DNA of 64,000 nucleotides from positions 3,807,001 to 3,871,000 of the forward strand of contig NZ_CP013118.1 of NCBI RefSeq assembly GCF_001443605.1, in the 5' to 3' direction. The stretch comes from Salinivirga cyanobacteriivorans (GTDB lineage Bacteria; Bacteroidota; Bacteroidia; Bacteroidales; Salinivirgaceae). This document shows positions 37,318 through 58,187 of this stretch, one piece after another. Under the pieces are notes generated by a model, which made no database searches, was not told the origin of the DNA, and worked only from the letters and a program-made list of their open reading frames with translations. Within the stretch, counting starts at the first letter, position 1. Every line of letters starts with the position of its first letter. Both the position numbers and the translations under genes were made by a program.

Positions 37318-37510
37318 AAAATTAATGTAAAAAAATCAAACCAATGCCTGTTGTTTTGGGATAAAAAAAACTTATCTTTAACGGAATAAATGATTAACCG
37401 AATGTATAAACGTTTAAATAAACGTTTAAAAACGGAAATAAGCGTACCCAAAGGTACACATATCTACCCCACGGTGGCAGGATATGGGGAACAGGTGCAC
37501 ATATTTACTA

Positions 37511-37519
37511 GTTGGGGCA
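37511..37519 (+). other. R'-like core box at the start of module 1
   Basis: GTTGGGGCA, an exact 9-base complement of the R''-like box at 49514-49522 at the far end of the same module. It resembles the integron R' consensus GTTRRRY except at the last base. No attC-like palindrome lies to its left, so this junction looks like insertion into a simple site. Confidence 0.5.
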
Positions 37520-37676
37520 CATGCAAAAAAAGACAACGGACACATTGACAATGACGAGTAACGACAGACATAATAGAATACATACCGACATTACGACAGG
37601 ACTAACTCGACTTGACCAACAGTGCAACCGGACAAGGACAATTGACCAGAAAGAAAAAATAAAAAGCCCACGCTTC

Positions 37677-37694
37677 GCATTTTTGAAAATTTCT
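37677..37694 (+). repeat. Module 1 inverted repeat, left copy
   Basis: GCATTTTTGAAAATTTCT, a perfect 18-bp complement of 49387-49404. It lies 11 bp outside hairpin A, mirroring the right copy outside hairpin C. Confidence 0.6.
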
Positions 37695-37705
37695 GCAACC
37701 GCACA

Positions 37706-37767
37706 TTGCACACATTTGCAAAGCCGCACAGGCCAACCCACAGACCAAGCTTTGCAAAAGAGTGCAA
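37706..37767. repeat. Hairpin repeat, copy A
   Basis: 19-nt arms (37706-37724 and 37749-37767) pair except for two A-A mismatches; 24-nt loop CGCACAGGCCAACCCACAGA and following bases. Family members B, C and D share the loop, the CACACATT/AAAGAGTG arm ends and the mismatch positions, while the inner arm sequence differs and co-varies. It lies 33 bp before the first defence gene. Confidence 0.75.
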
Positions 37768-37800
37768 TTTTGCCAGCGCGCAAAAGACCTTAATGGAAAT

Positions 37801-40647
37801 ATGAATTATCTCGAATGGAATAATGCGATCGGTAAATGGTTTTTCAACGAAGAGAAAGCCGAACAAGAAGTACAACTGTTTATTTCCAAGCATGATTTAG
37901 TTAAAATTGGCAGGGAGAAAGAACTTGACGGAGATACTGAAAAAATATTCCTCGATTTTATAGAAGCCATTAGAAAAGGTATTCCTGGGCAATCCTTGAA
38001 CGGTAATATCCTCGAACATGCCCTTTATGCCTATAATAAATGGCAGGAGAGCCCTGCAAAAATAGACGGGATACCAGTTGAGTACCCTTTATACTTGGGC
38101 TATTTAACCATATTTGTTTTGCCTTTAACAGAGAGTAATCAACCTGATTTACGTGTTGATGCTTATTATCCACGGGTAAGAACTTTTTTGAAAAAGTATG
38201 AGCTTCCCACAATGCCAACGCAAAATGAGTATTATAATTGGAACTCATTATGGGATGACTTATTTAACTGGAGCTTTGAAGAAAAGAATACTGAATTAGG
38301 ATATTTTGAAGTCCATCCATTTAAAAATGAAAGATGGGTATATGTAGGTAAACCCCTTTCGCAGAGTATTTTCCCCATTCATGCCCTCAGACAACTCCCT
38401 CAGTTTTTTGAAACTTCCGGTTTGGTTCCAGGAGAGGAAATAGAAGACAACACATTTAGGAAGCTTCTGTTAGCAAATGGGGAGAGAGGTTTAGGATTGT
38501 CAGAGAGGGTACTTAATGCCATACGTCAATCCAGTAATGAATTAGGACAATCCATTATAAGTATAGTGAAAAAGAACTACCTGGAATGGACTGGTAATAC
38601 GGATCAATATGATTCGGAAACTGAAACCATCAAAAAAGGAAATACAGTTGCCCAATTGCGTCTTTGTATTGAAGGAGACAAGGCCAGAGGATACAAGACT
38701 TATTACCGGCTATACACTAAACTGGACTTTCCCGAAGATTTGACATTCTTACATGATGAACGGGAGCATAAATGTCAGCAATTCGGCAAGGGGTGGTCGA
38801 AACCCTTATTCCTTCCGTTCAGCGAAGGAATGGAGCTTCAAGATGATTTGAATAAATGGAAAGCAAAGTTTCCAGAAAAGGATGTGAGGTTACTTATTGA
38901 AGGCAAAAACTTCCATTTGAGTGGTTGGGTTGAAGTACCATACATGGTTACATCAAGGATGTTGTTACTGGTAAAGGAAGAACAATCTCCATCCATAGAG
39001 GAATGGGGCGATTGTTTTTCAAAAGGTGATTTTAAAAAGATCCCAGCAACGGGAATACCCGATAGCCATGTTCTCTACGAAATATGTAATCCTCCCATCA
39101 ACCATCCTGACATTCCGGTGTTGCAATTTAAATCTGAGAAAAGGGTAATGATAACTGGCGGGCTTAAAACCCGGGCACGGACATGGCTAAATGACTTGCT
39201 TCCTGATGTTGAACTGGAGAATGGGCGTGGCAAAGAAACCGTTTACCTCGTATATGAAGACAGTGATGAAAAGATTCCGTTGAAGCGAAAGGATATTGAC
39301 CAACCTGTTTGGACACTTCCCCCAGACATCAAAATCAACAGGGGTTTTCATGTAAAAGTTGAAGGCAGTAAGGTAAAAGGAGAACAGTTAAGAAACTTTA
39401 TTGAAGGTTCCCAAGGTAAGGTAGAATTGCTTAACGAAGGGATGCTGCCAGCCCGTAATCAATTCGGTCAGATCATTAGCAGTGAAGAAAGTAATTCGTA
39501 CGTAATTGGAAGTAAGTTATTGACTGAAGATGAAAGAAAGTTATGGCTGCGTCAAGCATTATATTCGCGTGAATTCCGACCACAAATAACAAAAGGCAAG
39601 TACCTATCATCCGTGGAAAATGATTTCACCGGGTATAATAATTTACTTGTGAGTTTCCTAACTGTAAAAGGTGAAAGTTCTTCAAAAGATTATTTTGAAG
39701 CTTTTGAGTCAGTCTATCAAGAAAAGTTTGGTCCAGAAGAAATAGAATCACATCCAATTGAACTTTCCAGGTTAAAACGCTGGTCTCTAAACTACTTGGA
39801 TTACATGGGAATTTTGGATTACGAATATTCCACAAAGAAAATTGTAGTTAATCCCCCGCAATTTCTACTTATACCAACATGCAGTGGCAGGAAAGTGCTT
39901 TTGATTGGAGGCAGGACACCAGAGCTAATGCAAAAAGTCAAAGCGGAAACTGAAAAGGAAGGGTTGCACTTGAACCTTGAACCACAGGACATCTCTTTAT
40001 CCCCTTTCATCTTGCCACCAACTGTATCTGTTACGGGTTTTGATGAAAATGATGGGAATAGAATAGAGAGAAAATTGAGAAAAGTCGCTGAAGCCTGCTC
40101 CATATCCTTCGACCCAAATAAACTTCCACAGTTCAGGCTTGCAGAATTTTCGGGTAATATTGATGATTACAAAAGTCAACTGACACCCGATGAAAGATTT
40201 GATGATTCTGGTTGGCCTGCAAGGGTTTTTGACGTTGATCAATTACATTTTATTCCAATAGAAACACGAAGAATAGATAAAGGCTTCTCTCTCGTGGAAT
40301 ATCGGTTGACAGAATACAGCTTTAAACACAGGTTATGGATGAATGACCATCCTTATGATGTTAATAAGAACTGGGGGCGCTTTATGATTCTCAACCGTTA
40401 CAGAAAGGAAGTAATAATTAATGACAGAAAAAAGAACATAGTTGCTATTCCAGCAGCGTTGCCACTACCAAGATTAATTTCAGAAGCTATGACATTATTC
40501 AGTGGTAAAGCTCCTAAAAGGCTGTTTCTGGAAATTGAAGGAATCAATACATGGTTCAATATTTATGAAAATATTCCACCAATATTTGCTTCAAACTACT
40601 TTAGGAAAGTAGGACAAACGAAAAAAGAATTGACAATAAATTTATGA
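37801..40647 (+). CDS. Large defence-operon protein of unknown fold (Druantia-associated type)
   Basis: 948 aa from the ATG at 37801; an ATG 39 bp upstream would begin inside hairpin A. No signal peptide, membrane segment or recognisable enzyme motif; the chain is rich in beta-strand and aromatic residues. Large proteins of this kind are encoded beside DUF1998 helicases in Druantia systems (DruF/DruG or DruH), and by position this is the best candidate for one of them, but I cannot tell which. Its stop overlaps the helicase start (ATGA), so both are made together. Confidence 0.75.
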   Translation: MNYLEWNNAIGKWFFNEEKAEQEVQLFISKHDLVKIGREKELDGDTEKIFLDFIEAIRKGIPGQSLNGNILEHALYAYNKWQESPAKIDGIPVEYPLYLGYLTIFVLPLTESNQPDLRVDAYYPRVRTFLKKYELPTMPTQNEYYNWNSLWDDLFNWSFEEKNTELGYFEVHPFKNERWVYVGKPLSQSIFPIHALRQLPQFFETSGLVPGEEIEDNTFRKLLLANGERGLGLSERVLNAIRQSSNELGQSIISIVKKNYLEWTGNTDQYDSETETIKKGNTVAQLRLCIEGDKARGYKTYYRLYTKLDFPEDLTFLHDEREHKCQQFGKGWSKPLFLPFSEGMELQDDLNKWKAKFPEKDVRLLIEGKNFHLSGWVEVPYMVTSRMLLLVKEEQSPSIEEWGDCFSKGDFKKIPATGIPDSHVLYEICNPPINHPDIPVLQFKSEKRVMITGGLKTRARTWLNDLLPDVELENGRGKETVYLVYEDSDEKIPLKRKDIDQPVWTLPPDIKINRGFHVKVEGSKVKGEQLRNFIEGSQGKVELLNEGMLPARNQFGQIISSEESNSYVIGSKLLTEDERKLWLRQALYSREFRPQITKGKYLSSVENDFTGYNNLLVSFLTVKGESSSKDYFEAFESVYQEKFGPEEIESHPIELSRLKRWSLNYLDYMGILDYEYSTKKIVVNPPQFLLIPTCSGRKVLLIGGRTPELMQKVKAETEKEGLHLNLEPQDISLSPFILPPTVSVTGFDENDGNRIERKLRKVAEACSISFDPNKLPQFRLAEFSGNIDDYKSQLTPDERFDDSGWPARVFDVDQLHFIPIETRRIDKGFSLVEYRLTEYSFKHRLWMNDHPYDVNKNWGRFMILNRYRKEVIINDRKKNIVAIPAALPLPRLISEAMTLFSGKAPKRLFLEIEGINTWFNIYENIPPIFASNYFRKVGQTKKELTINL

Positions 40648-43600
40648 AAGACCCTATTGGATCATTTGAAACGATAAAAGAGAATTTCGTCCGGTACGTT
40701 AAAACGGCTTTCAAGACCAAATTTGATAGCCTGGAAGATGAACGTGAAGCGCTGTTAAACGAAGACAAAGTTCTTTACCGGCAACCCTGGATTGAGCCAT
40801 TACCTGAATACAAATCGAGTGGAAAAACTATCAACGACCTTTCTTCCGAAGATTTACCAGGGTTAAATGAGGCGCAACAGGATACGTTCAAAGGCTTGGT
40901 CAGTCAAGGGCTTATACCCGGTTATCAACTTCATGCCCATCAAGCTCAAATGTTAAAAGAAGCATTGTCTGGAAAGAATTGTATCATAACCTCCGGAACC
41001 GGCTCTGGGAAAACCGAATCATTCCTTTTACCCCTGTTTGCACAAATATCGAAAGAATTTTCTTCATGGAGTGCTACCGGCCAGAAAGAGCAATATGCAG
41101 ATAGTTGGTGGAGGGGTACTCTAAGCGCACGGGAGATTGTTGACACAGAAAACGGTTTTGTCCTTAGTAATGAAGTCCGGCAAAGGGCGCACGAAACACG
41201 TCCCCAAGCAATGCGGGCAATGATACTGTATCCCATGAATGCCCTGGTGGAAGATCAAATGACCCGGTTGAGAATTGCACTGGATTCAAGCCCTGTAAGG
41301 CAATGGCTTAATGAGAACACTGGGGGCAATACTATTTCATTTGGAAGGTACAATGGTTCAACACCGATTGCGGGAAAACTGGAAAGGTTGAATGAAGATG
41401 GGATTCCCGGAATCAACACCACGAAGGTTAACTCACTTATGCGGGAATTACAGGCAATCGAAAGGAACCAACAAAAGGTTGAGGAATATATACGGCAGGA
41501 AAGGCAAAAAGGAAATGAAGTGGATGAGAAAGAACTGAAGTCTTTTTTTCAGAGGCTCGATGGTGCTGAAATGAGATGCCGGTTTGACATGCAGGTTGCC
41601 CCACCGGACATAATGATCACCAACTTTTCCATGCTTAGTATCATGCTGATGCGGGATATTGACGGCCCGGTTTTTGAAAAAACACGCCAGTGGCTTGCTT
41701 GTGAAGACCTGCCGGAAGATAAGCGTGACCAGGAAAAACAAAACAGGATATTCCATCTTGTCATTGATGAACTGCACCTGTACCGGGGGACACAAGGAAC
41801 AGAAATAGCATACCTGTTGAAACTGGTTATGAAACGCTTAGGATTGCATCCAGGCCACCCACAATTGAGGATATTGGCTTCCAGTGCTTCTTTGGAACCA
41901 AATGATGAAAAGAGTTTAGAGTATGTAGGAGATTTCTTCGGGTTCAGGAAAGAAGATGTCAAAGATAAGTTCGAGATTGTTACAGGTGAATTAAGTCCGG
42001 TGGATCCACTGCCGGAAGAAGATGCCCCATTGCCAACCAATCCCTTTATTGAAGTTTGCAAGGCATACACATCAACGAGACATCAGGTTGACGATCCTGC
42101 ATTTTCGGAAGCATGTGTATCCGCAGGTAATACGTTACGTCAAGTCTTCGGTATTGACGACAATGTTTCGTCTATTCAGGACTTCTTACAATTACTCCTT
42201 CACCCAGAAATCAAGCTTCGTGAAAGGTTTTTTGATGCATGCAGTGTAGTACATGATGGGAAAAAAGTACCCCGTCCAGTTTGTACATTCAGGAAGCCTG
42301 GGGATGGTAACCCTCCTGACCTTCCTTATTTTTTTGAGGCCTTGTTTGGGCAGGTGAATGAAGAAAAATTACGCCACGCAGCAAGGGGACTGTTAATAGC
42401 CCGTTCCCTGTTTGATGAACCCCAATATAAGAATCTATTCCAGCAAGCTGGAAGGAGCTTGCAAAGATTCCGATTTCATTACTTTTTCAGGAACATTGAA
42501 GGAATGTGGGCTTCTACATCATCAGAAAACCCGGAAGATTCAAGGACATCAGGTAAACTCTATCCTGTACCGAGAATCAAATCGGAAGATGGGCACCGTG
42601 TATTGGAACTTTTATATTGTGATAATTGCGGTACAACACTGTTTGGAGGTAAGAGGGGAGCGCCAGGTGATACGAATGCTTTCTGCGAATTACTTCCGGT
42701 AAGCCCTAACATCGAGGGCATCCCTGAAAAAACACCGGCAAAACTGGTTGAGAAAAGAACATACCAGGAATATGGTGTATTCTGGCCTCAAGGTGACCAG
42801 GAGTTTATTGCACATGAAAGGACACGGGGTGAATGGGATCACCCCCACGATGCCTGGTGGAGGCAATTAACAGTAGAAGGTGCAACTTCCACTGAATATA
42901 CCGCACAATGGGTTGAAGCCTATCTGAACAAGCATTCAGGCGATGTAGTTCCATACAGCATTGAGGTTGAAGAAAAACCTGGAAACTGGGTAAAAGGATA
43001 CTTTTTCAGGGTACTCAGGGATTCGGATAACTCCGGTGTTGCTGATACCAGATTACAAGCGAACAAGGATGAGTTTGGAAATATGATTGACACGCATAAA
43101 GCACTTCCTTGTACTTGTCCGGGGTGTGGTGTCAATGAACAGTACAGAGCTAAAGGATCATCTATTCGTGGATTCAGAACTGGATTTGCTAAAACTACCC
43201 AGTTATTTGCAAAGGAACTTGTTTACCAGTTGCCAGAGAGTGCAAAACAGAGAAAACTCGTTGTGTTTTCGGATAGCCGGGAAGATGCAGCACAAATAGC
43301 GAATGGTATTGAAAGAAACCATTTTACAGATTTATTGCGTGAAAATTTGATTAAGGAATTGCATGACACAATAATTACAAGAGCCAGAATAATAGAAAGG
43401 TATAATTCAGGTGAAGATTTAGATGAACTAAGAACTACCTACCAGGAAAAGATAGATGAAGTAGAGGAAGTAATTGAAAACAGCGAAATAAGTCAAGACA
43501 CACCGAACCAGAGAAAACAAGAAAAGAGACGAAATGCTATCCAGCAAATTCAAGAGATCAAAAACCGGATAATCAAAGTAAGAGACCTTGTACGTTCTGT

Positions 43601-46600
43601 GGACCCTGATAAATGCGCTCCGTTAATCAAAAGGTTCATTCAGCTTGGAGTCAATCCTGGCGGACCTTCCATTAATCTTCAGGAGATACAGGATGGCGAC
43701 ACTGCCAAAGAGTGGTACAAGTTGTTTGACTTTACAAAAGGAACTGAAAAATGGATAGACGATGAATCTAATTTCCGGGGACAAATCGAAAGGGGAACAT
43801 TTGTTCAATTGGCCAGCTTGTTTTTTGGAAACCTGTTTTACTCCCTTGAAGCATCAGGATTAGGTTATCTGACGGTCAATACTACTGCTGAACCTTTGAC
43901 ACATAATGCTGCCAATGCCGGATTGATTCGTGACCGATTCCTGGAGGTAATCAATTCATCTATCCGCATACTTGGACATAAATATAAATACATGCCTAAT
44001 GATTTTGACAACCCCCGAATTCTGGATGTAACTGATTATAATTCGTTTCCATCACTATTCAAGAAGTATATCCGGAAGGTCGCAGAACTCAACAGTATTG
44101 AAGAAACTGACTTGGGTGAAGCAGTATTAAATGCTTTGACAGCTCTTGATGTGTTGACTGGTCAGGGGATTAATACGCAGGAACTTTATATAAAGGTAGC
44201 AACCGGGGACGATCCGGTATGGGAAAGTCCAAGAGGGAGCCGTCCCCACCTTCATAAGTCTGCCGGTGTTTGCACCCAGTTTCCAGAAGGGCCACCAATA
44301 CCTGAAAACTCAACCAGTATTTGCAAAAACTTCTGGAACAATAATTACCTTTCGTATCATTCTGCGGTTGAAAACCGGAATCCCATCCGGCTGCATTGTG
44401 AGGAATTGACCGGGCAAACGGATAACCAGTTTGAACGTCAAAGGCATTTCAGGGACATTATCCTGCAAGATGACGGGCAACCGTTGGCAAAGAGCATTGA
44501 CTTGTTAAGTGTAACAACAACCCTGGAAGTTGGCGTTGATATTGGTTCCCTGCAAGCCGTGATGCTGGCTAACATGCCACCACAACGGTTTAATTACCAG
44601 CAACGGGTAGGCCGTGCCGGACGGAGAGGTCAGGCATTTTCAGTGATCCTCACTTTTTGCAGGGGGCGCAGCCATGATGAATTTTATTTTAACCATACCC
44701 ATAAAATCACTGGTGATCCACCTCCCCCTCCCTTCTTGACAATGGGACAAGACAGGATTATCAAACGGCTGCTTTCAAAGGAGGTATTGAGACAAGCCTT
44801 TATACCACTCATGGCTGACATACGGGAAGATATATTAACCCTTTCCAGGAACGAAAGGCAAACAAGTGTTCATGGGGAATTTGGAAAGACCGACCATTGG
44901 CAGAATTACAGGGAAAGCGTCCAGGAATGGATTAACCGTAACCGTGCGGAAATAGAGAGAACAGTCGAGGCATTGAAGCCGGGTATTGACCCAGGCAAGA
45001 AGCAAGAGCTAGCCGACTGGATAATCAGTAACAGTGATGATGGTTTTATGGTAAAAGTTAACCAAGTAATTGAGAATGATGAAATTTCAACAATTGACAT
45101 ATCCGAAAAACTTGCAGAGGGTGGTGTGTTACCCATGTTTGGTATGCCAACTTCAGTGCGTAACCTATACCATGAGATAGCTTATGACGGACGGGATTAC
45201 AACCTTAAATCCATTGATAGGAATACAGACCTTGCCATATACGAGTTTGCCCCAGGTGCTCAAAAAACAAAAGACAAGGCTATCCATACTTCAATCGGCT
45301 TCACAGATGATTTTATTACAAGAAATGGCCGGTGGGGTGATCCGGTAATTGTTAATGGCTCCCCGTTTTATAACGAAAGGTGGATGGTTAAATGTAAAAC
45401 ATGCAATTTCATTGCAACACAACGGGAAGAACCAGAACAAAACATTTGTGAATATTGTGGGGAAACAGAAAGGGTGGATATTTTCCCAATAAAGTCCCCG
45501 GTTGCATACCGTACAAACCTGTCGGGCGGAAACGATTCAAAGGAGAACTCTGAAATAACCCTTTCAAGGCCTCCGATACTTGCTGAAAGCAATGATGAGG
45601 AATCCCTGGTACAAGAAGCATCAGGCAACAACTTCCTGGCTAAACTCGCAGACAGAGATATTACATGGCGGGTCAATACGAATGGAGATTTGCTGTTTGA
45701 AGGGAAACAGGTAAGAACAGGGAACTTGTTCCCTTTTAACCGGAACCAATGGGTTAATTTCAGTAACCAGTGGATATTGAGGGGAATAGAAGATAATAGT
45801 GAATCCGGATACCGGTTTAATGTCCACGACAATGAAGATGCTTATGAAAAAATTGCGCTTGCAGCACATAAGAACACTGAAATTTTAAGGATTCACCCCA
45901 TTCACATTTCACCGGCCCTTACTCTGGACATGTTTAACCAGGTATCGTCTCTGAATTATGCCGGAATACGGTCAGCATTTTACTCCGCAGCATTCCTGTT
46001 GCAAAGGGTGATAGCAGACAAGCTCGATGTGGATCCAGTTGAAATAGAGATAGCAGACATACGGAAGATATCTTCGGAAAACGGCAGGGATATGGCTGAA
46101 ATCATTCTGACTGATGAGCTTCCGAATGGTTCCGGGTTTGTCCGGCATTTATTCAATAATATCAATGAAACTATCCAGGAAGCCATAACACCACAGGAAG
46201 GAATAACCTATTTGGGCAATATTCATTCTGAATCGCACAGGCAATCGTGTAAAGATGCTTGTTATGATTGCCTGAAGGTTTTCAGGAATATGAATTATCA
46301 TGGCTTGCTTGACTGGCGGTTAGGTATTGCCTTGATGCGGGTAATGACAAGCAGGAATTATCTGGCAGGGGCTGACGGTCAATTCAACGGATTTCTTGAA
46401 CTGGAAGGATGGCCTGAAGATGCTACACGGTTGCGGGATAGTTTCGCAGAAAGTTTTGAGTTTGATGTACTGGAGGGATTTGAATTGCCTGCGGTTCTGG
46501 TCTCTAAAACCAGAATATATTATGTAATAATCATTCACCCACTTTGGAATTGCAAAATTAATGAAAGCGGGATACCGGATGTCCCTGATAACACTTGGTT

Positions 46601-49296: not shown

Positions 49297-49309
49297 CCAA
49301 CGCAGCAGT

Positions 49310-49368
49310 CACACACATTGGCTGGCTGCCCAAAGCCACCCGCAGACCAAAGCCAGCCAAAGAGTGTG
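49310..49368. repeat. Hairpin repeat, copy C
   Basis: 17-nt arms (49310-49326 and 49352-49368) complementary except for the same two A-A mismatches as copies A and B; 25-nt loop with the shared core CACCCGCAGACCAAA. The inner arm is TTGGCTGGC here, TTTGCAAAGC in A. Begins 13 bp after the vsr stop codon. Confidence 0.75.
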
Positions 49369-49386
49369 CCTGCCCAGCCCGGAAAA

Positions 49387-49404
49387 AGAAATTTTCAAAA
49401 ATGC
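49387..49404 (-). repeat. Module 1 inverted repeat, right copy
   Basis: AGAAATTTTCAAAAATGC, the perfect complement of 37677-37694. It lies 18 bp outside hairpin C. Confidence 0.6.
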
Positions 49405-49513
49405 CCCACGCGCGACTAAAAAAGGACAATAACAATGACACAGACAGACAATAAAGGACTTCTTAACCGGTTGACAATGTGGACGGAAAAATAAAAAAGA
49501 ATGAAAAGCACGA

Positions 49514-49649
49514 TGCCCCAACATTGTATAAGCGTAATGCGGGCTAAAGTGGTAAAATTGAGCACTTTTGCTCCTAATAAACTTTGAGGTAAGCGGACAG
49601 TGAATCGCTCCGAAACTCCGCACTACGCTTATACTTGACCGTTAGCTGC
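49514..49649. repeat. attC-like palindrome E1 at the end of module 1
   Basis: R''-like TGCCCCAAC (49514-49522), left arm GTATAAGCGTAATGCGG (49526-49542), about 75-nt central part with AGCGGACAG and GCTCCGAAA, right arm 49618-49634 (16 of 17 complementary), then CC and R'-like GTTAGCTGC (49641-49649). The same frame recurs at 58053-58187. R'' pairs with the R' of its own module (37511), not with the R' beside it. The region 49297-49905 holds no protein gene. Confidence 0.65.
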
Positions 49650-49739
49650 AAGTGAACGAAACTGCAACATTAAAACCGGATTATAAAAATTGAAAAAACG
49701 GACAGAAGATATTAGCTCTTTGATTGATGGTAGGTGCAA

Positions 49740-49755
49740 GAAAAAATTAGTTTTT
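49740..49755 (+). repeat. Module 2 inverted repeat, left copy
   Basis: GAAAAAATTAGTTTTT, perfect complement of 57961-57976, located 47 bp outside hairpin B. Low complexity alone, but placed exactly as its counterpart in module 1. Confidence 0.5.
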
Positions 49756-49802
49756 GCCCACCCGCTTCTGCCCTTCGGGACAGTTGGGGAAGCCACCGCA
49801 CA

Positions 49803-49863
49803 TTGCACACATTTGCAAATCGCACAAGCCGACCCACAAACCGAAATTTGCAAAAGAGTGCAA
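49803..49863. repeat. Hairpin repeat, copy B
   Basis: 18-nt arms (49803-49820 and 49846-49863) with the two conserved A-A mismatches, 25-nt loop CGCACAAGCCGACCCACAAA and following bases. Inner arm TTTGCAAAT versus TTTGCAAAGC in copy A, each matched by its partner arm. 42 bp before the AraC start codon. Confidence 0.75.
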
Positions 49864-49905
49864 TATCCCAGCCCACTTGTCAATAATCCTTTTTAATTTA
49901 GTAAA

Positions 49906-50901
49906 ATGATTATCGAATTTACAGCAGATAAACCTCAAAACTGGCTTCAACACATAGCAAAACAATTTGGTGTTGAACTGGAAGAAAACACCATAAATTT
50001 TCCATCCCATATGGGCGAAGGTTTTTTAAGGCATTATTATTTAACAAATGGTATTACTCTAAACTACTTACGTTTTAGATTCTATCAGGAAATAACATTC
50101 TCAAGAAAAGCAGGTAAAGAAGTTCCTTTCTCCCCAATCATGTTTTATATACATGAAAAGAAATGTAAACAGGATATTGAAGATGAGATTAAAGAAATAT
50201 TTTCGAATTCACCGAATGGTGTTTTCTGGCCTTCATCTCATATAAGCTCCGTTTGGAAATTCCCTGTAAACGAATGGTTGTCGAATATTACGATAGCCAT
50301 CAATCATGAATGGTTATTAAAAAATTGTGATAGCGGAAAGGGTAATTATATACATCAACTTCTTACATCAGGTAAACCATTTTATGTTTTCGAAGAAATT
50401 ACTTCAGAGATGCACCAAATTATATCGGATATTGTGGATATAATTGGCAATAATTCCCATGCTTGTGTTGCTAATCTTTTTTTAGAAAGTAAATCTACTG
50501 AATTGTTAGCCCTTTTTATTGAAAAGTTAGTTGACAGACCACTAAATGAAAATACATCCAACCTAAATTCCTCTGATGTTGAGAAACTATTTAAAATTAA
50601 AGAAATAATTCTCAAAAATATCTCCGACACACCATCATTGAATAAATTAGCTGATACCGTTGGTTTTAGTGAAAGTAAATTGCAAAAATCATTTAAACAG
50701 GTTTTTGGTAAGAGTATTTATCAATACGCTTTATACGAGAAAATGCTCGTAGCTCAAAAGATGCTCAAAAGTAAGAAATACAGTGTGTCTGAGGTGGGAT
50801 ACGAATTGGGCTATTCTAACCTAAGCCATTTTACAAAAGCTTTTAAAAACCAGTTTGGGGTTAATCCTAAAACCTACGCTTCTAAGACACATTATTCTTA
50901 A
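49906..50901 (+). CDS. AraC-family transcriptional regulator
   Basis: 331 aa. The C-terminal 100 residues are an AraC double helix-turn-helix: first helix pair at LNKLADTVGFSESKLQKSFK, second at VSEVGYELGYSNLSHFTKAF, ending in the NQFGVNPKTY signature. The N-terminal 220 residues are a sensing domain of no recognised family, like other Bacteroidota AraC regulators of exporters. It is the first gene of module 2 and probably regulates the export operon 174 bp downstream; a terminator separates the two. Confidence 0.9.
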   Translation: MIIEFTADKPQNWLQHIAKQFGVELEENTINFPSHMGEGFLRHYYLTNGITLNYLRFRFYQEITFSRKAGKEVPFSPIMFYIHEKKCKQDIEDEIKEIFSNSPNGVFWPSSHISSVWKFPVNEWLSNITIAINHEWLLKNCDSGKGNYIHQLLTSGKPFYVFEEITSEMHQIISDIVDIIGNNSHACVANLFLESKSTELLALFIEKLVDRPLNENTSNLNSSDVEKLFKIKEIILKNISDTPSLNKLADTVGFSESKLQKSFKQVFGKSIYQYALYEKMLVAQKMLKSKKYSVSEVGYELGYSNLSHFTKAFKNQFGVNPKTYASKTHYS

Positions 50902-50923
50902 CATACAGATTATCTTTACATTA

Positions 50924-50956
50924 TACCTCTAAAATATGCTTTAGGGGTATTTTTTT
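50924..50956 (+). terminator. Terminator of the AraC gene
   Basis: Ten-bp stem with one wobble (TACCTCTAAA at 50924-50933, TTTAGGGGTA at 50940-50949), loop 6 nt, followed by T7. Confidence 0.75.
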
Positions 50957-51003
50957 ACTTTTTAAGAGTGTTTTTGTGTTGTTTAGGGGTATTCCTATCC
51001 ATA

Positions 51004-51041
51004 TTGCGGTTATTTCACCCCTGAAATGTCATGTACTTTTG
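51004..51041 (+). promoter_or_regulatory. Candidate promoter and operator of the export operon
   Basis: A -7 element TACTTTTG (51034-51041, exact TAnnTTTG) lies 35-40 bp before the operon start. Immediately upstream is the palindrome ATTTCA-CCCC-TGAAAT (51012-51027), a possible operator for the AraC regulator encoded upstream. The -33 element is poor (TTG at 51004-51006, spaced 27 nt), which fits an activator-dependent promoter. Confidence 0.4.
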
Positions 51042-51075
51042 TTAGTGTAAATTATTTCAAACACGAATAAAATAT

Positions 51076-52365
51076 ATGACAATGAAATATTTAACTTTTT
51101 TAATTAGCCTGTTCGGGCTTTCAATGTCGCTGTTTTCCCAAAGTTTATTCGAAAGCGCATTATCATCTGGAAGCCCTGATGAAAAAAACTTTGAAATAAA
51201 CGGATTTGTCCGAAGCGATGTTTTTGCAAATGAAATAGATATCCGTTCAGTTTATGGAGAAACTTCTCTAAGAATTGAAACCAAATCATTTCAATTTGGT
51301 AATGCCTACTCTGAATTTCGTATCAAACAAAACCTTCTCGAACCGAATCAACCAACAAGTGTAGATTTCAGGGAGGGATACATTAAACTATATTTGTCGG
51401 ATTTTGATTTTCGTATAGGACAACAGGTTATTGCATGGGGACGTGCCGATGGTTTTAACCCTACTAATAATCTCACCCCGCATGATTTTACTGTGTTCTC
51501 ACCTGATGAAGATGACAAACGTTTATCTAATTTTGCATTTTCCGGTATTTACAACTTCAATCCTTTCAAGTTAAATATTGTATGGATTCCTCTATATAAA
51601 AGCAGTGTTCTACCATTTAAAAAAGCAAGTTTACCGGAAGGTGTTAGTTGGTGCAATGAGGACTTCCCTGAAAGCCAATTATCCCAAAGCAACGTTGCCT
51701 TAAAACTTACTATTGAAAAAGCATCCTTTGATGGCTCTCTTTCCTGGTTCAATGGCTACCATAAATTACCCGGATTGAAAAACCAGTCGATTGACAATTT
51801 AAGTAGTCAGGTGTTTTTAACTACACACCGAACTAATATTTTTGGTTTTGATTTCTCAACAACTTTTGGGAATTATGGATTACGTGGCGAATTTGCCTAT
51901 TCTCATCCCAAAGAGCAAAATGATTCTTTACATGCAACCCCTCTTCCTCAAATAGAATACACAATTGGTTTGGATAAAGAATGGGGCAATTTTAGCCTGA
52001 TTGTTCAATACATAGGTAAATATGTAAGCGATTTTAATGAACATAATGGATTGGTAACAGATTTTAGTTCCCAATTATCGATATGGAACGATATGATTTA
52101 TGGTCAGCAAAACGAATATTCCCATACAGCATCAATCAGACCTTCTTTATCGCTCGTGCATCAGACATTAAATTGTGAAGTATTAAGCCTTTACAACTTT
52201 ACAACACAAGAACTATTTTTTAAGCCCAAAATTACTTACAAGCTTTCCGATAATCTTTCATTAACTGCCGGGGCACAATATTACTATGGCATTGAAAATA
52301 CACTTTTCGAGATACTTAGTAAAGGGTTAAATGCCGGGTTTTTGGAATGTAAAATCAATTTTTAA
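51076..52365 (+). CDS. DUF1302-like outer-membrane beta-barrel protein
   Basis: 427-429 aa (ATG at 51076 or, more likely, 51082) with a signal peptide ending LFSQ. The chain is made of alternating aromatic beta-strands and ends in CKINF with a terminal Phe, as in outer-membrane barrels. The segment FRIGQQVIAWGRADGFNPTN is typical of DUF1302 proteins. Together with the MMPL transporter and the LolA-like gene that follow, it suggests a trans-envelope export route for a lipid or other hydrophobic compound; that role is inferred. Confidence 0.78.
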   Translation: MTMKYLTFLISLFGLSMSLFSQSLFESALSSGSPDEKNFEINGFVRSDVFANEIDIRSVYGETSLRIETKSFQFGNAYSEFRIKQNLLEPNQPTSVDFREGYIKLYLSDFDFRIGQQVIAWGRADGFNPTNNLTPHDFTVFSPDEDDKRLSNFAFSGIYNFNPFKLNIVWIPLYKSSVLPFKKASLPEGVSWCNEDFPESQLSQSNVALKLTIEKASFDGSLSWFNGYHKLPGLKNQSIDNLSSQVFLTTHRTNIFGFDFSTTFGNYGLRGEFAYSHPKEQNDSLHATPLPQIEYTIGLDKEWGNFSLIVQYIGKYVSDFNEHNGLVTDFSSQLSIWNDMIYGQQNEYSHTASIRPSLSLVHQTLNCEVLSLYNFTTQELFFKPKITYKLSDNLSLTAGAQYYYGIENTLFEILSKGLNAGFLECKINF

Positions 52366-52388
52366 ATCATCATTAAATAAATATAGCA

Positions 52389-54674
52389 ATGAAAAAATTA
52401 TCAAAATTTACGATTCGATTTCGGTGGCCTATCATCCTTTTTTTTCTGGCAATAAGCTTATTTACAGGCAGCCAAATTAAAAATGCCACCATGAACTCTG
52501 ACATGATGACCTATCTGCCCGATGATATGCCATCGCGTGTTAACAAACGAAAAGTAGAAGAACTTTTCGGTGGTACCGAAATGCTTATGCTTATTGTAAA
52601 ATCAGAAGACGTTATTAACTCATCAACCTTAAAAAGGGTTCATAAATTCTCCCGTGAGATGTCTCGTATAAAAGGTGTTGATAAGGTATTGTCTCTTTTC
52701 GACCTGAAGTATGTGCGCAATGAAGATGGTGCAATGATGGTTGACCCGGCTGTAAAGAAACTGCCTCGCACAGCGGAGGATATTAAGGAAATAAAATCCG
52801 ACCTCAAAAACAATGATATGGTTTACGGTAATGTTGTATCGAAAGATTTTACAACAACCGCCGTAATCGCTCTTTTAGAACCTGATGTATCTGATAAGGA
52901 AATGGTAGAAAAATTCCAACAACTAATTGACAGTATTCCCGGAGATGAAGAAGTAGTTATTGGAGGCACACCATTTTCACGAATGCACACCGCTAAAAAC
53001 ACCATGAAAGATTTAGGCAGGTTATTGCCTTTGGGCTTATTGATTATGTTGGTGTTTCTTTTCATTTGTTTTAAACAATTCAGAGGTGTTTGGCTGCCTT
53101 TTGTGGTTGTCCTTATGTCCATTTTTGTTTCTATGGGAATAATTCCTTTATTAGGATGGGAAATAACAGCTATCACCATTATTCTACCTGTTTTGCTTAT
53201 TGCTGTGGCAAATGATTATGGTATTCACATGTTCTCGAAATATCAGGAAGATAATGTTCCCGGTGAAATGCTTACAAGAAAACAGTTATCTGCCAGAATG
53301 TTGCAAAGTATGGGTAAACCTATTTTATTGGCAGGTTTCACAACAATTATTGGGTTATTATGTTTGAAAGGACACATATTAATACCTGCCGGGCAGATGG
53401 GTATTTTAGCTGCTATAGGTATTGCATTTGCATTGGCTACTAGTTTAGTATTTATTCCGGCTGTTAGTTCTCTATTGCCAAAAACAAAACCAATATTAAA
53501 ATCAAAAGATGCGCAACCAAAGAAATCAATTGTGATAAATCTTTTATCAGGCTTTGGAAAACTGGTTTCACGAAAACCCAAATTGGTTATTATCTTTTCT
53601 CTTTTATTTACAGCGTTGATTTCAATTGGCATTTCTAAAGTCGCAGTAAATACCGACCCGATTAACTTTTACGAAGAAGACCACCCTGTAAAATATTCTG
53701 CTGAACTTATCAATAAAGAACTGGGTGGCTTTTTCCCTTTATCCATTGTCTTTAACGGCGACATAAAAGACCCTGAGGTGTTGAGTGAGATTGATGAAAT
53801 AGAGAAACAAATTCAGCAAATACCTGAAGTTGGCAACACTACATCAATAGCAAGGGTAATACGCCAAATGTCAAGGGCTTTGAATGATAGTAACGATTGT
53901 GCTTATGACAAAATACCTGACACCTACAATGCCTCTGCCCAGTATTTTGAATTATACATGATGAGTGGTGAACCGGAAGATTTTGAAAAAATGGTGGATT
54001 TCAATTTTGAGCATGCCATGATTTTAGTTCGTCTAAATCAGTCAAGCACGCCGGTAATGCGAAAAGTAATAAAACAAATTAAGGAAATAACCTGTGATGA
54101 ACCTTATGTAGAATACATTGGCGGCGCATCCGATATTTTTTCAGAACTGGATATCAATGTTGTTCGTGGTCAGTTTATTTCATTGGGCTTGGCTCTTGCC
54201 GTAGTATTCATCATTTTACTAATCGTATTCCGTTCGTTCAAAGGAGCCTTTATTTCTATTCTCCCGTTGGTATTGTCTATGCTAATACTGTTTGGTCTAA
54301 TGGGATATTTAGGTGTTGAGTTAAACCTCACGACTGCACTTTTATCTTCAATAATGATTGGTGTAGGGATTGATTATACCATACATTTTATTTGGCGGTT
54401 AAAAGAAGAACGTGCAGCAGGAAATTCTTTTGAACAAGCAGCTATCAATACCTTAAAAACTACAGGCAGAGGCATTGTTTTTAACGCTTTATCGGTAATT
54501 ATTGGCTTTTCTGCACTTCTGTTCTCCAGCTTTATTCCGGTCAAGTTTTTCGGTTTTTTAGTAGTAGTATCCATATTTGCCTGCCTTGCCGGGGCATTAT
54601 TGCTTATTCCTGCAATATGTGTGCTTTTCAAACCAAAATTTCTTGAACCAAAAACAAATAATAACAACAACTAA
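52389..54674 (+). CDS. MMPL/RND-family exporter
   Basis: 761 aa. Twelve predicted helices in two homologous halves: helix 1 at about 12-30, large periplasmic loop, helices around 213-375, helix at about 400-418, second loop, helices around 605-750. The sterol-sensing-like/RND motifs include VANDYGIHMFSKYQ and GVGIDYTIHFIW with the membrane Asp residues of proton-driven transport. MMPL proteins move lipids such as hopanoids or surface lipids. No adaptor (MFP) gene is present; the LolA-like protein downstream may play that part. Starts 23 bp after the barrel gene. Confidence 0.9.
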   Translation: MKKLSKFTIRFRWPIILFFLAISLFTGSQIKNATMNSDMMTYLPDDMPSRVNKRKVEELFGGTEMLMLIVKSEDVINSSTLKRVHKFSREMSRIKGVDKVLSLFDLKYVRNEDGAMMVDPAVKKLPRTAEDIKEIKSDLKNNDMVYGNVVSKDFTTTAVIALLEPDVSDKEMVEKFQQLIDSIPGDEEVVIGGTPFSRMHTAKNTMKDLGRLLPLGLLIMLVFLFICFKQFRGVWLPFVVVLMSIFVSMGIIPLLGWEITAITIILPVLLIAVANDYGIHMFSKYQEDNVPGEMLTRKQLSARMLQSMGKPILLAGFTTIIGLLCLKGHILIPAGQMGILAAIGIAFALATSLVFIPAVSSLLPKTKPILKSKDAQPKKSIVINLLSGFGKLVSRKPKLVIIFSLLFTALISIGISKVAVNTDPINFYEEDHPVKYSAELINKELGGFFPLSIVFNGDIKDPEVLSEIDEIEKQIQQIPEVGNTTSIARVIRQMSRALNDSNDCAYDKIPDTYNASAQYFELYMMSGEPEDFEKMVDFNFEHAMILVRLNQSSTPVMRKVIKQIKEITCDEPYVEYIGGASDIFSELDINVVRGQFISLGLALAVVFIILLIVFRSFKGAFISILPLVLSMLILFGLMGYLGVELNLTTALLSSIMIGVGIDYTIHFIWRLKEERAAGNSFEQAAINTLKTTGRGIVFNALSVIIGFSALLFSSFIPVKFFGFLVVVSIFACLAGALLLIPAICVLFKPKFLEPKTNNNNN

Positions 54675-54685
54675 AAACTATAAAA

Positions 54686-55483
54686 ATGAAAACAATAAAG
54701 ATTATATTATTAGTAGTGACAACTTATGTCACATCAATGTCTGTTTATTCTCAAAGTAGTTTAACAGCAAAACAAATTCAGCAAAAATCCATTGAAGCAA
54801 CTCGTATCGAAGGCACTGAGGCAATCAGTAAAATGACTATCATTAATAAAAATGGTCAGCAGCGGGTGCGTGAAATGGCAGTTTTAACAAAACTTTTCGA
54901 TAATGGTAACACCGAAAAGAAACTTATTCGTTTTACTTCACCTGCCGATGTTAAAGGTATCGGTTTTTTAACCTACGATTATAATGTAAAAAACGATGAT
55001 AAATGGATTTACATGCCTGCATTAAGAAAAACCCGGCGTATTATCAGTTCAGAAAACGCCAAAAGTTTTATGGGTTCTGAATTTTCTTATGCCGATATGA
55101 CTTTGCCAAATATTAATGAATACACCTATTCATTATTGGGCGAAGAAACTATAAATAGTACTGCATGTTACAAAATCAAAATAATTCCTATTAACGATGA
55201 TGTGATGGATGCCAATGGTTTTTCAACAAAGGTATCCTACATCGGTAAAAGCGACTTTGTGCTACGCAAAGCTGTTTATTATGATTTATTTGACGAAAAA
55301 GAAAAAGTTATGGAATTTGAATCTATTGTTGAAGTTGATAAAACAAACCATAAATACAGGTTTAAAAAAGTTGTGATGACAAACCTGCAAAATGGCAGGA
55401 AATCCATTTCTGAAATCTTGCAAATTAAGTTTAACCCTTCTATTACTGATGAATATTTTACTACCAGGTATATTGAGAGATAA
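54686..55483 (+). CDS. LolA-like outer membrane lipoprotein-sorting protein
   Basis: 265 aa with a signal peptide ending VYSQ. The LolA_like fold (PF17131-type) is indicated by LLGEETINSTACYKIKIIP, DKWIYMPALRKTRRI and the SENAKSFMGSEFSYADM segment. Such proteins are regularly encoded beside MMPL exporters and are thought to carry the hydrophobic cargo across the periplasm. It begins 11 bp after the MMPL gene and is clearly in the same operon. Confidence 0.88.
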   Translation: MKTIKIILLVVTTYVTSMSVYSQSSLTAKQIQQKSIEATRIEGTEAISKMTIINKNGQQRVREMAVLTKLFDNGNTEKKLIRFTSPADVKGIGFLTYDYNVKNDDKWIYMPALRKTRRIISSENAKSFMGSEFSYADMTLPNINEYTYSLLGEETINSTACYKIKIIPINDDVMDANGFSTKVSYIGKSDFVLRKAVYYDLFDEKEKVMEFESIVEVDKTNHKYRFKKVVMTNLQNGRKSISEILQIKFNPSITDEYFTTRYIER

Positions 55484-55512
55484 TTATTAAAATTACTACA
55501 AACAATAGGAAA

Positions 55513-55962
55513 ATGAAAACAAATAAGATATTACCCCCAAGAGTATTTCAAATAGCCCTGTTAGTTATTGTTGTCATACATTTTTTAATACCTGTTCGGT
55601 TTATATATAATTCTCCTGTACGTTTTTTTGGTGTAATACCCATTGCTTATGGGGTTTACCTGAACATTTATTCCGACTGGCTGATAAAAAAATATAAGAC
55701 TACCATAAAGCCGTTCGAAAAGCCAACTTCATTAATCGAAAAAGGTACATTCAGTTATTCCAGAAATCCTATCTATTTAGGTATGGTGCTTATTGTTTTA
55801 GGCTGTTCCCTTTTGTCGGGCTCGGTATTGTCTTTTGTTGTACCGGTAGCATTTGCCTTTATTCTTCATTTTAAATACATTATTGTTGAAGAAGTTAATT
55901 TGGCAAGTCAATTCGGGGAAATTTACCTAAGTTATAAATCAAAAGTGCGTTGTTGGATATAA
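55513..55962 (+). CDS. ICMT/PEMT-family membrane methyltransferase
   Basis: 149 aa, four membrane helices. The isoprenylcysteine carboxyl methyltransferase signature is present: SRNPIYLGMVL and, at the end, EEVNLASQFGEIYLSYKSKVRCWI-type spacing (EE then FG, Y and the final W). It methylates a small membrane or lipid substrate with S-adenosylmethionine. In this operon it may modify the exported compound; that is a guess from position. Confidence 0.85.
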   Translation: MKTNKILPPRVFQIALLVIVVIHFLIPVRFIYNSPVRFFGVIPIAYGVYLNIYSDWLIKKYKTTIKPFEKPTSLIEKGTFSYSRNPIYLGMVLIVLGCSLLSGSVLSFVVPVAFAFILHFKYIIVEEVNLASQFGEIYLSYKSKVRCWI

Positions 55963-55973
55963 ATACAGGAATC

Positions 55974-56669
55974 ATGAAAAAAATAATTGCCTTGCTCATA
56001 TGCATGATTATTACTTTGCTATATCCTAAAATGGGTTATGAAATAGCAAGTACTTTTAGTCAGCAATTCGGAATTACCTGGAACTACATTCATCACTTGG
56101 TACAATTTGCTCTGGCCTTACTCACAATTCTTATATTTCTTAGAATCAGGAAAGATAAATCTATTTCAGATTTTGGATTCAACTTGAAAAATAGAAAGTG
56201 GTCATTAAAAACAGTTTTAAATTTCACTATTGGTTGGATTTTAATAACTACTATTTTTAACCTGATATTTACATTTAAGAATCATGTGTCATTTGAGACA
56301 AACGGCTTAAACATTTTTACATCGTTATTTTTCGATTTTATTATTACGCCGATTTCTGAGGAAACCTTGTTTCGGGGATTAATCTTCAGCCTTTTGTTGA
56401 TGTTTTTTCCTGGAAAATTACGAATTGGAAAATTTTCTGTTTCATATTCTGTGTTGCTTTCCACATTATTCTTTTCATTGGCACACATTGGAATTGATTA
56501 TCAAAATCTCACAATTATTTATATTGATTTCATACAACTTGTATTTACAATTGGCTTAGGAATATTTTATGCAATAATGCGAGAAAAATCACAAAGTTTG
56601 TTGGGACCAATGATTGCCCATGGCGTTTCTGACGGTGTGATTAAAACCGTTCAGCTCATTATACCTTAA
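55974..56669 (+). CDS. CPBP-family intramembrane glutamic endopeptidase
   Basis: 231 aa from the ATG at 55974, 11 bp after the ICMT stop; the frame is open further upstream to 55950. Rce1/CAAX-like protease with seven or eight helices: the EExxxR motif reads EETLFR (Glu129-Glu130), followed by SLAHIG (FxxxH) and AHGVSD (HxxxD/N). In eukaryotes ICMT and Rce1 process the same prenylated proteins, so their adjacency is suggestive; in bacteria CPBP proteins often give immunity or mature peptides. Confidence 0.87.
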   Translation: MKKIIALLICMIITLLYPKMGYEIASTFSQQFGITWNYIHHLVQFALALLTILIFLRIRKDKSISDFGFNLKNRKWSLKTVLNFTIGWILITTIFNLIFTFKNHVSFETNGLNIFTSLFFDFIITPISEETLFRGLIFSLLLMFFPGKLRIGKFSVSYSVLLSTLFFSLAHIGIDYQNLTIIYIDFIQLVFTIGLGIFYAIMREKSQSLLGPMIAHGVSDGVIKTVQLIIP

Positions 56670-56695
56670 ATATTGTTTTACCAATATTATTGTTT

Positions 56696-57076
56696 ATGTC
56701 AGATTCATACAAAATAGATATTGCGGGAGACTTTTATGTTAGAAAGTTTTATGGAGAAATTTATTTGAACACAATTCAGAATTCATGGATTGAGCTTATG
56801 GCTTTGGATAATTATTTAATGTATAAGGGATTTTTAACTGATTTTTGTGCCGCAAGAGTTATTATAACAAAGAATGATTTGGATGATATTATTTCGTTCT
56901 ACAAATCGAACTCCATATACTTGACAAATAAAAGAAACGCTGTTATTAGCCTTCAACCTAGCATGATTGCATTTATAATGCTTTTGAAAATGAATTTAAA
57001 TTGTCTTGACATCCGTTATTGTTTAAAACCTTTCTCAACTTATGAGGCTGCCCTTCATTGGTTGAAAAAACATTAA
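56696..57076 (+). CDS. STAS/SpoIIAA-like small protein
   Basis: 126 aa from the ATG at 56696 (a TTG at 56690 is also in frame). The pattern of short strands followed by YKGFLTDFCAARV and KRNAVISLQPS resembles STAS/SEC14-like proteins of Bacteroidota, but the similarity is weak. It has no signal or membrane segment. Located between the CPBP protease and the DUF6544-like gene with short gaps (26 bp and 4 bp), so it belongs to the operon. Confidence 0.55.
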   Translation: MSDSYKIDIAGDFYVRKFYGEIYLNTIQNSWIELMALDNYLMYKGFLTDFCAARVIITKNDLDDIISFYKSNSIYLTNKRNAVISLQPSMIAFIMLLKMNLNCLDIRYCLKPFSTYEAALHWLKKH

Positions 57077-57080
57077 TAAT

Positions 57081-57857
57081 ATGTACTTAAAAACAAATAT
57101 TCTTTTGTGTTTATTAATTATAATCTTCTGTCAAAGTGTATTTTCACAAATATGCGGTGAATATGATTCAATAAATAAAACAAATGCTATGGACAACCAG
57201 ATTGTAAACGATTTGCCAGAACCAGTCGTTAAATATTTTTCTTATGTTTTGCCTAATAAAGAAAAGAGGATTAGCGAAGTTTATTTAAAACATTCGGGCT
57301 TTTTTAAAACATCGTTGAAAAGTAAATGGATTAAAATAAAAGGTGAACAACACTTTTTAACTAAGCAACCTGAATTTAAATGGATTGGCAGAACCTTAAT
57401 GTTTAAAGCAGTTGACCAGTTTATAAACGGCAAAGGGTCATTAAAAGTTAGGTTGTTTTCCTTATTTCCTATTGTAAATGAACAAGGAAAACATGTTGAC
57501 GAGGCTGAATTACTCCGTTGGTTAGGTGAAAGCGTTTGGTTTCCCACTAATCTATTGCCATCAGAAAATTTAAAATGGTTGGCTATTGATTCCTCATCAG
57601 CAAAACTTACATATTCTTACAAAGGTTTGGAGGTATATTACATTGTCCGTTTTAACGAAAATGGTGAAATAATTCAATTAGAGACAGAGCGTTATATGGA
57701 AAAAGGCAGACTTGAAAAATGGATAGGAAAAGTCGCTGAATATAAAGAATTTAATGGTATAAAAATTCCGACACATATTGAAGCTATTTGGAAATTGAAC
57801 TCTGGAGATTTTAAATATGCCGATTTTTATGTTGATACAATTGAGTATGAATATTGA
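57081..57857 (+). CDS. DUF6544-like exported protein
   Basis: 258 aa with a signal peptide ending VFSQ. The layout (LPEPVVKYFSYVLP, HSGFFKT, GEQHFL, then LLRWLGESVWFPTNLLP) is that of DUF6544 proteins, which have no known activity. Last gene of the module 2 operon; hairpin D begins about 15 bp after its stop. Confidence 0.75.
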   Translation: MYLKTNILLCLLIIIFCQSVFSQICGEYDSINKTNAMDNQIVNDLPEPVVKYFSYVLPNKEKRISEVYLKHSGFFKTSLKSKWIKIKGEQHFLTKQPEFKWIGRTLMFKAVDQFINGKGSLKVRLFSLFPIVNEQGKHVDEAELLRWLGESVWFPTNLLPSENLKWLAIDSSSAKLTYSYKGLEVYYIVRFNENGEIIQLETERYMEKGRLEKWIGKVAEYKEFNGIKIPTHIEAIWKLNSGDFKYADFYVDTIEYEY

Positions 57858-57872
57858 TTCAGCCCACACAGC

Positions 57873-57930
57873 CAAGCACAATTACAATTCGCACAAGCTA
57901 ATACACGACCAAAAATTACAAAAGAGCTTG
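57873..57930. repeat. Hairpin repeat, copy D (diverged)
   Basis: 17-nt arms (57873-57889 and 57914-57930) with five mismatches, including A-A at the positions conserved in A-C; 24-nt loop CGCACAAGCTAATACACGAC and following bases clearly related to the other loops. A decayed member of the family, just after the last gene of module 2. Confidence 0.6.
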
Positions 57931-57960
57931 TCTGCCTGCCATTGCTTTTTTGCCGACCCT

Positions 57961-57976
57961 AAAAACTAATTTTTTC
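57961..57976 (-). repeat. Module 2 inverted repeat, right copy
   Basis: AAAAACTAATTTTTTC, perfect complement of 49740-49755, 30 bp outside hairpin D. Confidence 0.5.
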
Positions 57977-58052
57977 GGGAACAGCAGTGCTTCTATTGAA
58001 TGGATTAACGATTGTAATATATTGATAATTAACTAATAATGAATGAACACCA

Positions 58053-58187
58053 GCACCTAACAAAGTATATAAAACATTTGGCGAATAGTGCTAGTTTTAA
58101 AGCAGTTACATTTAATGTAAATTGTAGCGGTTTGACAGGTTTGCTCTCCGAAATGCCAAACGTTTCATATACATGGCCGTTAGAGCG
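58053..58187. repeat. attC-like palindrome E2 at the end of module 2
   Basis: R''-like GCACCTAAC (58053-58061; ACCTAAC fits RYYYAAC), left arm GTATATAAAACATTTGGC (58065-58082), centre with AGCGGTTTGACAG and GCTCTCCGAAA, right arm 58155-58172 (16 of 18 complementary), then CC and R'-like GTTAGAGCG (58179-58187). It shares its frame and central words with E1 at 49514-49649. Confidence 0.65.

Follow-up and report, generated by a model that had tools for sequence, protein, structure and literature searches.

The 64,000-nt stretch of the Salinivirga cyanobacteriivorans genome analysed here (the window; contig NZ_CP013118.1, positions 3,807,001 to 3,871,000) contains two palindromes that close two large multi-gene modules, and raises the question of whether whole operons are held there as gene cassettes of an integron. 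A sequence-only reading had proposed as much, and we find it largely right: judged from sequence, the locus is probably a variant of integron, in which recombination itself is something that we infer. Because an attI-like site and two cassettes are present and an integrase is absent, we take positions 37425 to 58187 to be, very probably, an integron without its integrase, in which the attI-like site is followed by cassettes of 12.1 and 8.5 kb, each closed by an attC site.

Layout of the locus and its attI-like left edge

Both palindromes, E1 and E2, and the R'' and R' boxes that border them were recovered with all elements where the sequence-only reading had placed them. The attI-like site (37425-37513, plus strand) has its insertion point between G37511 and T37512 (..GGTGCACATATTTACTA G|TTGGGGCA), where the first cassette begins; this cassette of 12,130 nt (37512-49641, plus strand) comprises a Druantia operon and attC E1, and the second, of 8,538 nt (49642-58179, plus strand), an MMPL exporter operon and attC E2. 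Site E1 (49514-49649, plus strand) consists of R'' (TGCCCCAAC, 49514-49522), stem arms GTATAAGCGTAATGCGG (49526-49542) and CCGCACTACGCTTATAC (49618-49634) and R' (GTTAGCTGC, 49641-49649); site E2 (58053-58187, plus strand) has R'' GCACCTAAC (58053-58061), arms GTATAT..AACATTTGGC and GCCAAACGTTTCATATAC, and R' GTTAGAGCG (58179-58187). Under covariance model R2, E1 scores 112.5 bits (filters off) and E2 110.2 bits, and under model R1 E1 scores 139.4 bits, E1 being within the training sets of both models. The covariance search, with filters off, found no further attC within either module, and the window gave no Rfam match.

The boxes pair from one end of a cassette to the other. The TTGGGGCA behind the attI-like site is the exact complement of the E1 R'', and the 9-mer GTTGGGGCA at 37511-37519 recurs in the window only as its complement in that box (0.35 occurrences expected), which bears out the claim that E1 R'' is matched 12 kb away and not by the neighbouring R'. 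The reported match of E1 R' to the complement of E2 R'' (GTTAGGTGC) in 8 of 9 bases holds as well. Over the six variable bases, a full match has a chance probability of 1/4096, and one of at least 5/6, as between E1 R' and E2 R'', of 0.0046. No downstream partner was found for the R' of E2.

That position 37511 lies in a recognisable attI-like site is a point absent from the sequence-only reading. Among 20 arrays from named species or from our own loci, the first cassette is joined at G|TT beside the integrase in 17, where the reverse complement of the first attC's R'', in all six variable bases, is found behind the integrase stop codon, mostly within 57-156 nt. The core consensus of these sites is ..TATA.A.TA|GTT, and a 14-nt core matrix trained on 17 attI sites of other arrays ranks 37511 first of the 1207 GTT positions in the window. 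Over its full length the site can also be aligned to the attI sites of Algoriphagus ornithinivorans (z 7.3) and Cyclobacterium (z 4.4). At 194 bp upstream, where an integrase gene would be expected, lies an insertion sequence (IS) copy with DDE_Tnp_1 and DUF4372 domains (35904-37317, minus strand), which, unlike other resolvable copies, has no 7-nt target duplication. Neither an integrase nor an integrase remnant was found in the window, including the interval between the IS and the attI-like site, in agreement with the earlier statement that the window holds no integrase. Because the upstream IS copy lacks its target duplication, we suggest that an IS-linked rearrangement removed the local integrase gene.

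A family of attC sites with crossed pairing

A search of the 4.81-Mb host genome with a covariance model built from three copies (E1, E2 and a motif-found copy at C1:942654-942791) gave 21 sites, the weakest at E = 0.002, in clusters on contig C1 at 462-509, 934-943, 3857-3887, 4412-4448 and 4600-4605 kb, plus singletons. Host copies number about 24; with sites in 97 of 149 sampled genomes of the host's order, the covariance search that the sequence-only reading had suggested did retrieve the family in the host and in related genomes. Across these 149 relatives the exact central-word pattern (GCGG..ACAG..CCGAAA) occurred at chance level, and was replaced by covariance models. In keeping with attC anatomy, an R'' ending in AAC and an R' beginning with GTT flank an imperfect stem whose structure is conserved and whose sequence varies. 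In the 24 aligned copies 89.4% of stem cells are paired, against at most 40% after the partner is slid by 1-3 columns; 134 cells are double-changed (40.7 in shuffles), a single cell is G.U, AAC-GTT is nearly invariant and the covariation score is 0.659 (0.120 shuffled), a covariation that is supporting and not independent evidence, the alignment having been fitted to the structure. A longer attC subtype (about 190-200 nt, with a conserved inner hairpin GCCAAAACTTCGTTTTG..CAAAGTTTTGGC) was mostly missed by the 136-nt model; copies lie at 7300-7490 in locus L056, 13130-13290 in L033 and 10030-10210 in L032, and in the host at C1:941702 and 3592425.

The sites are asymmetric between strands. One stem position is unpaired in all 24 copies and is A.C in the three founding ones; read on the bottom strand, a top-strand A.C becomes a T.G wobble. 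Across 87 sites, top-strand mismatches comprise 189 A.C and 74 G.T, and at 64 of 75 sites the fold is more stable for the bottom strand (p 6e-9); the attC most likely folds as a bottom-strand hairpin. Group II introns (RF02001) lie within the R'' of several sites, oriented opposite to the cassettes and with exon junctions xTGT|T, resembling the group IIC-attC introns whose target is TTGT/T in the R'' of the folded attC bottom strand (PMC7923331). By this analogy, the introns would be independent readers of the sites as folded attC bottom strands, their subclass being assigned by Rfam RF02001 and a group II reverse transcriptase (RT)/maturase model alone. Carriers are loci L058, L057, L059 and L033 (host) and L199 (Chryseobacterium plasmid); the introns are either full length, at about 2 kb with an RT, or short, at about 0.56 kb, and several copies are nearly identical.

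Since the covariance model pairs only AAC with GTT and leaves the six outer bases of the boxes free, those bases were not selected for by the search and can be compared between sites. We compared 54 consecutive pairs, taken from the host and from a dozen loci in other genomes. In 45 of them the preceding R' agrees with the complement of R'' at six of six bases, and the mean over all pairs is 5.5; the in situ control gives a mean of 2.11, and shuffling a mean of 2.13 and a maximum of 3.02 over 20,000 shuffles. R' thus complements the R'' of the next site and not that of its own. Such crossed complementarity is the defining bookkeeping of cassettes, and the sequence-only reading had named random levels of it in other copies, and palindromes with no link to module borders, as grounds for abandoning the proposal; pairing is far above random, and the palindromes follow cassette boundaries in many genera. 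A 1.3-kb cassette present in two copies of 99% identity illustrates the boundary, the 3' flanks parting at the G|TT of R' (GTTAGCTGC versus GTTTGCCAAC). Large units recur in the host with full six-base pairing: a DdmD-like system at C1:511290-517270 (about 6.0 kb, after removal of an intron from R''), a PLD-domain, Zac-like pair of about 4.8 kb, and a 4.1-kb cassette. The 12.1-kb cassette of the window pairs fully too, but giant cassettes are exceptional, the median length of the 45 exactly paired ones being 0.92 kb.

The linked recombinase and alternative explanations

The search of the host genome for a recombinase, also suggested earlier, found 25 Phage_integrase domains, of which a dedicated 481-aa tyrosine recombinase at C1:477547-478989, 1.4 Mb from the window, heads an attI and a same-strand, plus-strand array; within this array every R'' is again the complement of the R' before it. 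An integrase beside the array, missing from the window, is thereby present at another array of the host, as in many relatives. The gene is co-directional with its array and is transcribed with it. The R, K, H, R, H, Y residues expected of a tyrosine recombinase are invariant columns in both family alignments. Relatives of the enzyme, whose family is common in Bacteroidota, occur in 59 of the 149 sampled genomes of the order, and 53 of these 59 also have sites, against 44 of the 90 genomes that lack a relative (Fisher p 1e-7). The loci of named species (Rufibacter, Arundinibacter, Algoriphagus, Algibacter, Seonamhaeicola, Winogradskyella, Flavobacterium and others) contain 69 plus-strand sites, and every one of these is downstream of the recombinase and shares its strand. 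Minus-strand matches number just two, both in a Calditrichota locus whose enzyme falls within the canonical IntI clade. The platform is plasmid-borne in Chryseobacterium and Rufibacter. Among the close plasmid relatives from outside Bacteroidota are TnpF-like tyrosine recombinases of Acinetobacter (41% identity); most are annotated just as integrases.

A profile of 28 family members, compared with IntI4 and 12 canonical IntIs, gave two aligned stretches, and the approximately 45 residues between them are absent from the family; the canonical IntI clade (100/100 support) holds none of 31 family members. The best fold match in the PDB is the IntI4-VCR complex, and an N-terminal extension has weak HARP similarity (PF07443; E 3e-5 for one member and 0.05 for another, below the curated cut-off). 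The extra IntI domain has been treated as definitional (PMC2426708, PMC9668308), and IntegronFinder 2 records only In0 elements in Bacteroidetes before one complete integron in Salinibacter (PMC9024848). Our searches of the open-access literature, with subscription papers and preprints outside their reach, found no description of this recombinase and site family, which is apparently a widespread and undescribed branch of integrons. Tandem recombinase pairs of 310 and 288 aa, tried as candidate integrases, were rejected: the 310-aa type scores 92 bits with the IntI profile against 189 for the 481-aa enzyme, and the pairs adjoin ATPase-like genes and transposases, with no array in the approximately 3.5-kb loci read. 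Around twelve near-identical copies of these pairs, each adjoining an ATPase-like gene, are spread over 200 kb at C1:108000-303000 (loci L008-L030).

In the mechanism that we propose, the bottom strand of attC would fold into a hairpin with R'' pairing with R', and the tyrosine recombinase would cleave between G and TT of R'; the excised cassette would close to a circle whose R' and R'' are complementary, and the circle would reinsert at attI or at another attC. The enzyme in the host is most likely the 481-aa recombinase, possibly acting on the window sites in trans, the local integrase having presumably been lost through the adjacent IS.

The recombinase bears directly on the possibility that a canonical IntI serves these sites, which would then be the ordinary attC sites of a canonical integron, with the window a plain cluster of attC sites lacking an integron integrase (CALIN). 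We consider this very unlikely: the anatomy of R'', variable stem and R' is the same, the bottom-strand bias is shared and canonical IntIs occur in other classes of the phylum, but no protein in the host genome exceeds the IntI cut-off, and in the phylum sample, as counted from the listing, only one of 99 genomes of the host's class has such an IntI (104 of 297 outside it) against 61 of 99 with R2 sites. Moreover, the linked recombinase has no IntI insert and lies outside the IntI clade, and canonical loci mostly have no R2 sites or have weak ones that lie on the other strand and diverge from intI. The sequence-only reading of the modules as integron cassettes is supported, with the refinement that the linked recombinase is not a canonical IntI. 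That the palindromes are RNA terminators, repetitive extragenic palindromic (REP)-like repeats or miniature inverted-repeat transposable elements, with no part in module movement, is scarcely credible, even though they are intergenic and covariation alone would suit an RNA element too; crossed pairing, the attI pairing behind the integrase gene, near-zero G.U stem cells and the strand bias are unexpected of such elements.

Transport by the flanking IS copies (35904-37317 and 60096-61506), which are 97% identical and inverted, could in principle have brought both modules as a composite transposon with the attC sites as passengers. This was rejected as the main explanation, on IS copy number and target duplications, and we consider it very unlikely: the genome contains approximately 16 near-full-length copies, the right copy carries a 7-nt target duplication of its own, and the module borders lie at G|TT and not at IS ends. 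IS transport and integron cassette movement could, however, both be true at different times. Somewhat less remote, although still unlikely, is that the modules are not single cassettes but combine what were several cassettes or host genes, internal attC sites having been lost, an idea prompted by modules 9 to 13 times the median cassette length and by the failure of cross-pairing in a nearby Septu/restriction-modification (RM) module. Cassette 1, however, pairs fully, encodes one coherent system and has no internal remnant, and the other large cassettes (6.0, 4.8 and 4.1 kb) also pair fully.

Several observations weigh against the integron reading itself. The E1/E2 pair carries one mismatch, and the 8.5-kb module depends on a match at five of six variable bases. 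Nine of the 54 consecutive pairs are not fully matched, and six of these match poorly; sites that the model missed, such as those of the approximately 190-nt subtype, are the probable cause. The Septu/RM module downstream (6.6 kb, C1:3878482-3885104) has an R' and R'' that do not match, and was rejected as a further giant cassette. The window attI strongly resembles three attI sites, and its combined score over 17 sites is not significant (z 1.7). The recombinase reaches 189 bits with the IntI profile (TIGR02249) against a cut-off of 265, and R2-type sites occur also in further classes of the phylum. Finally, we infer excision and recombination from sequence, no recombination event or circular form having been observed; no empty site was found, the left flank being unmatched in two genomes of the same genus (one genome per species).

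In another class, a canonical-type IntI is preceded on its own strand by strong R2-type sites (66-97 bits; locus L208 5834-13329, genome G153). The Septu/RM module (L056 7482-14241, host C1:3878482-3885241) is an operon of a Type I methyltransferase, a specificity subunit, PtuA and PtuB (Septu-like), with the same conserved ends as the cassettes.

Cassette cargo and relation to known systems

Cassette 1 is, on its protein matches, a complete Druantia anti-phage system with a Vsr, the helicase DruE being accompanied by DruM, F, L and K in PADLOC matches. Its plus-strand genes encode a 961-aa DruF-DruL fusion (37762-40647; DruF4 284 bits over residues 14-592, DruL4 165 bits over 629-959), a 2026-aa DruE helicase (40644-46724; DruE2 1951 bits at full length, with DEAD, Helicase_C and MZB domains), a DruK PD-(D/E)XK nuclease (46721-47788; PADLOC DruK 1.9e-26, PF12705), a DruM cytosine methyltransferase (47733-48950; DruM2 563 bits, PF00145) and a Vsr-type nicking endonuclease (48886-49296; PF03852 4.9e-33, PADLOC Vsr). 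Cassette 2 (genes at 49906-57857, plus strand, assigned by Pfam) encodes an AraC-type regulator (49906-50901), a DUF1302-like protein (51076-52365), the MMPL exporter (52389-54674), a LolA-like protein (54686-55483), PEMT (55513-55962), an Rce1-like protein (55950-56669), a 128-aa open reading frame (56690-57076) and DUF6544 (57081-57857).

A second structured element, a double-stem hairpin of 50-75 nt (ACATTTG..GCC.ACCCAC..CAAAAGAG) with variable complementary arms, is oriented with the cassettes. One copy, the H hairpin (37705-37768, plus strand), seen from inverted repeats, fold and pattern, is near the 5' end of cassette 1, and related hairpins at 49305-49373, 49792-49864 and about 57860-57945 place one near each end of each cassette. 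Others occur in loci L032 (3544-3595, 7429-7479), L033 (13463-13513, 19094-19143) and L034 (5191-5241; 832-881 on the minus strand), and large cassettes share conserved 5' and 3' ends of about 200 nt around them. These hairpins could act in termination, as promoters or as further recombination sites.

The arrays resemble sedentary chromosomal integrons such as Vibrio IntIA/VCR in having a recombinase, an attI, tandem cassettes, R''/R' boxes and a variable complementary stem, and share with Vibrio-type integrons an attC length that is homogeneous within each genome, crossed R'/R'' complementarity, the bottom-strand bias and a fold nearest IntI4-VCR. They differ in their recombinase, which falls outside the IntI clade, has no IntI insert and carries a HARP-like N-terminal extension, in that the integrase gene is co-directional with the array, and in that a few cassettes hold operons of 4-12 kb. 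Like integrase-less attC clusters, several of which occur in the host, the window array has attC sites and no local integrase; unlike them, it keeps an attI-like site, and its cassettes exceed the usual clustering rule of under 4 kb between attCs (PMC9668308). All of DruE, DruF, DruL, DruK and DruM are present as in Druantia; the differences are that DruF and DruL are fused, that the genes are packaged in an integron cassette and that a Vsr lies alongside. Integron-borne phage-defence cassettes of Vibrio and of mobile integrons bank anti-phage systems, and the known ones mostly have one or two genes, whereas in this array a single cassette contains all five genes of a complete Druantia system.

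We hold it an evenly balanced possibility that Bacteroidota have a separate class of integron, in which an Xer-like, non-IntI lineage recombines folded single-stranded attC without the IntI insertion, perhaps with HARP-like repeats reading single-/double-stranded DNA junctions instead, and banks entire multi-gene defence operons in cassettes that reach 12 kb. Surveys require the extra IntI domain and cassettes spaced by a few kb, and would therefore overlook, or count as rare, a platform that more than half of the sampled Bacteroidia genomes carry. Should the recombinase work without the IntI insert, the origin of the use of folded single-stranded sites would become testable by comparison of the two lineages. 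If the proposal is true, the Druantia and DdmD-like cassettes would represent multi-gene immunity moved in one step, which may explain part of the turnover of defence genes in the phylum.

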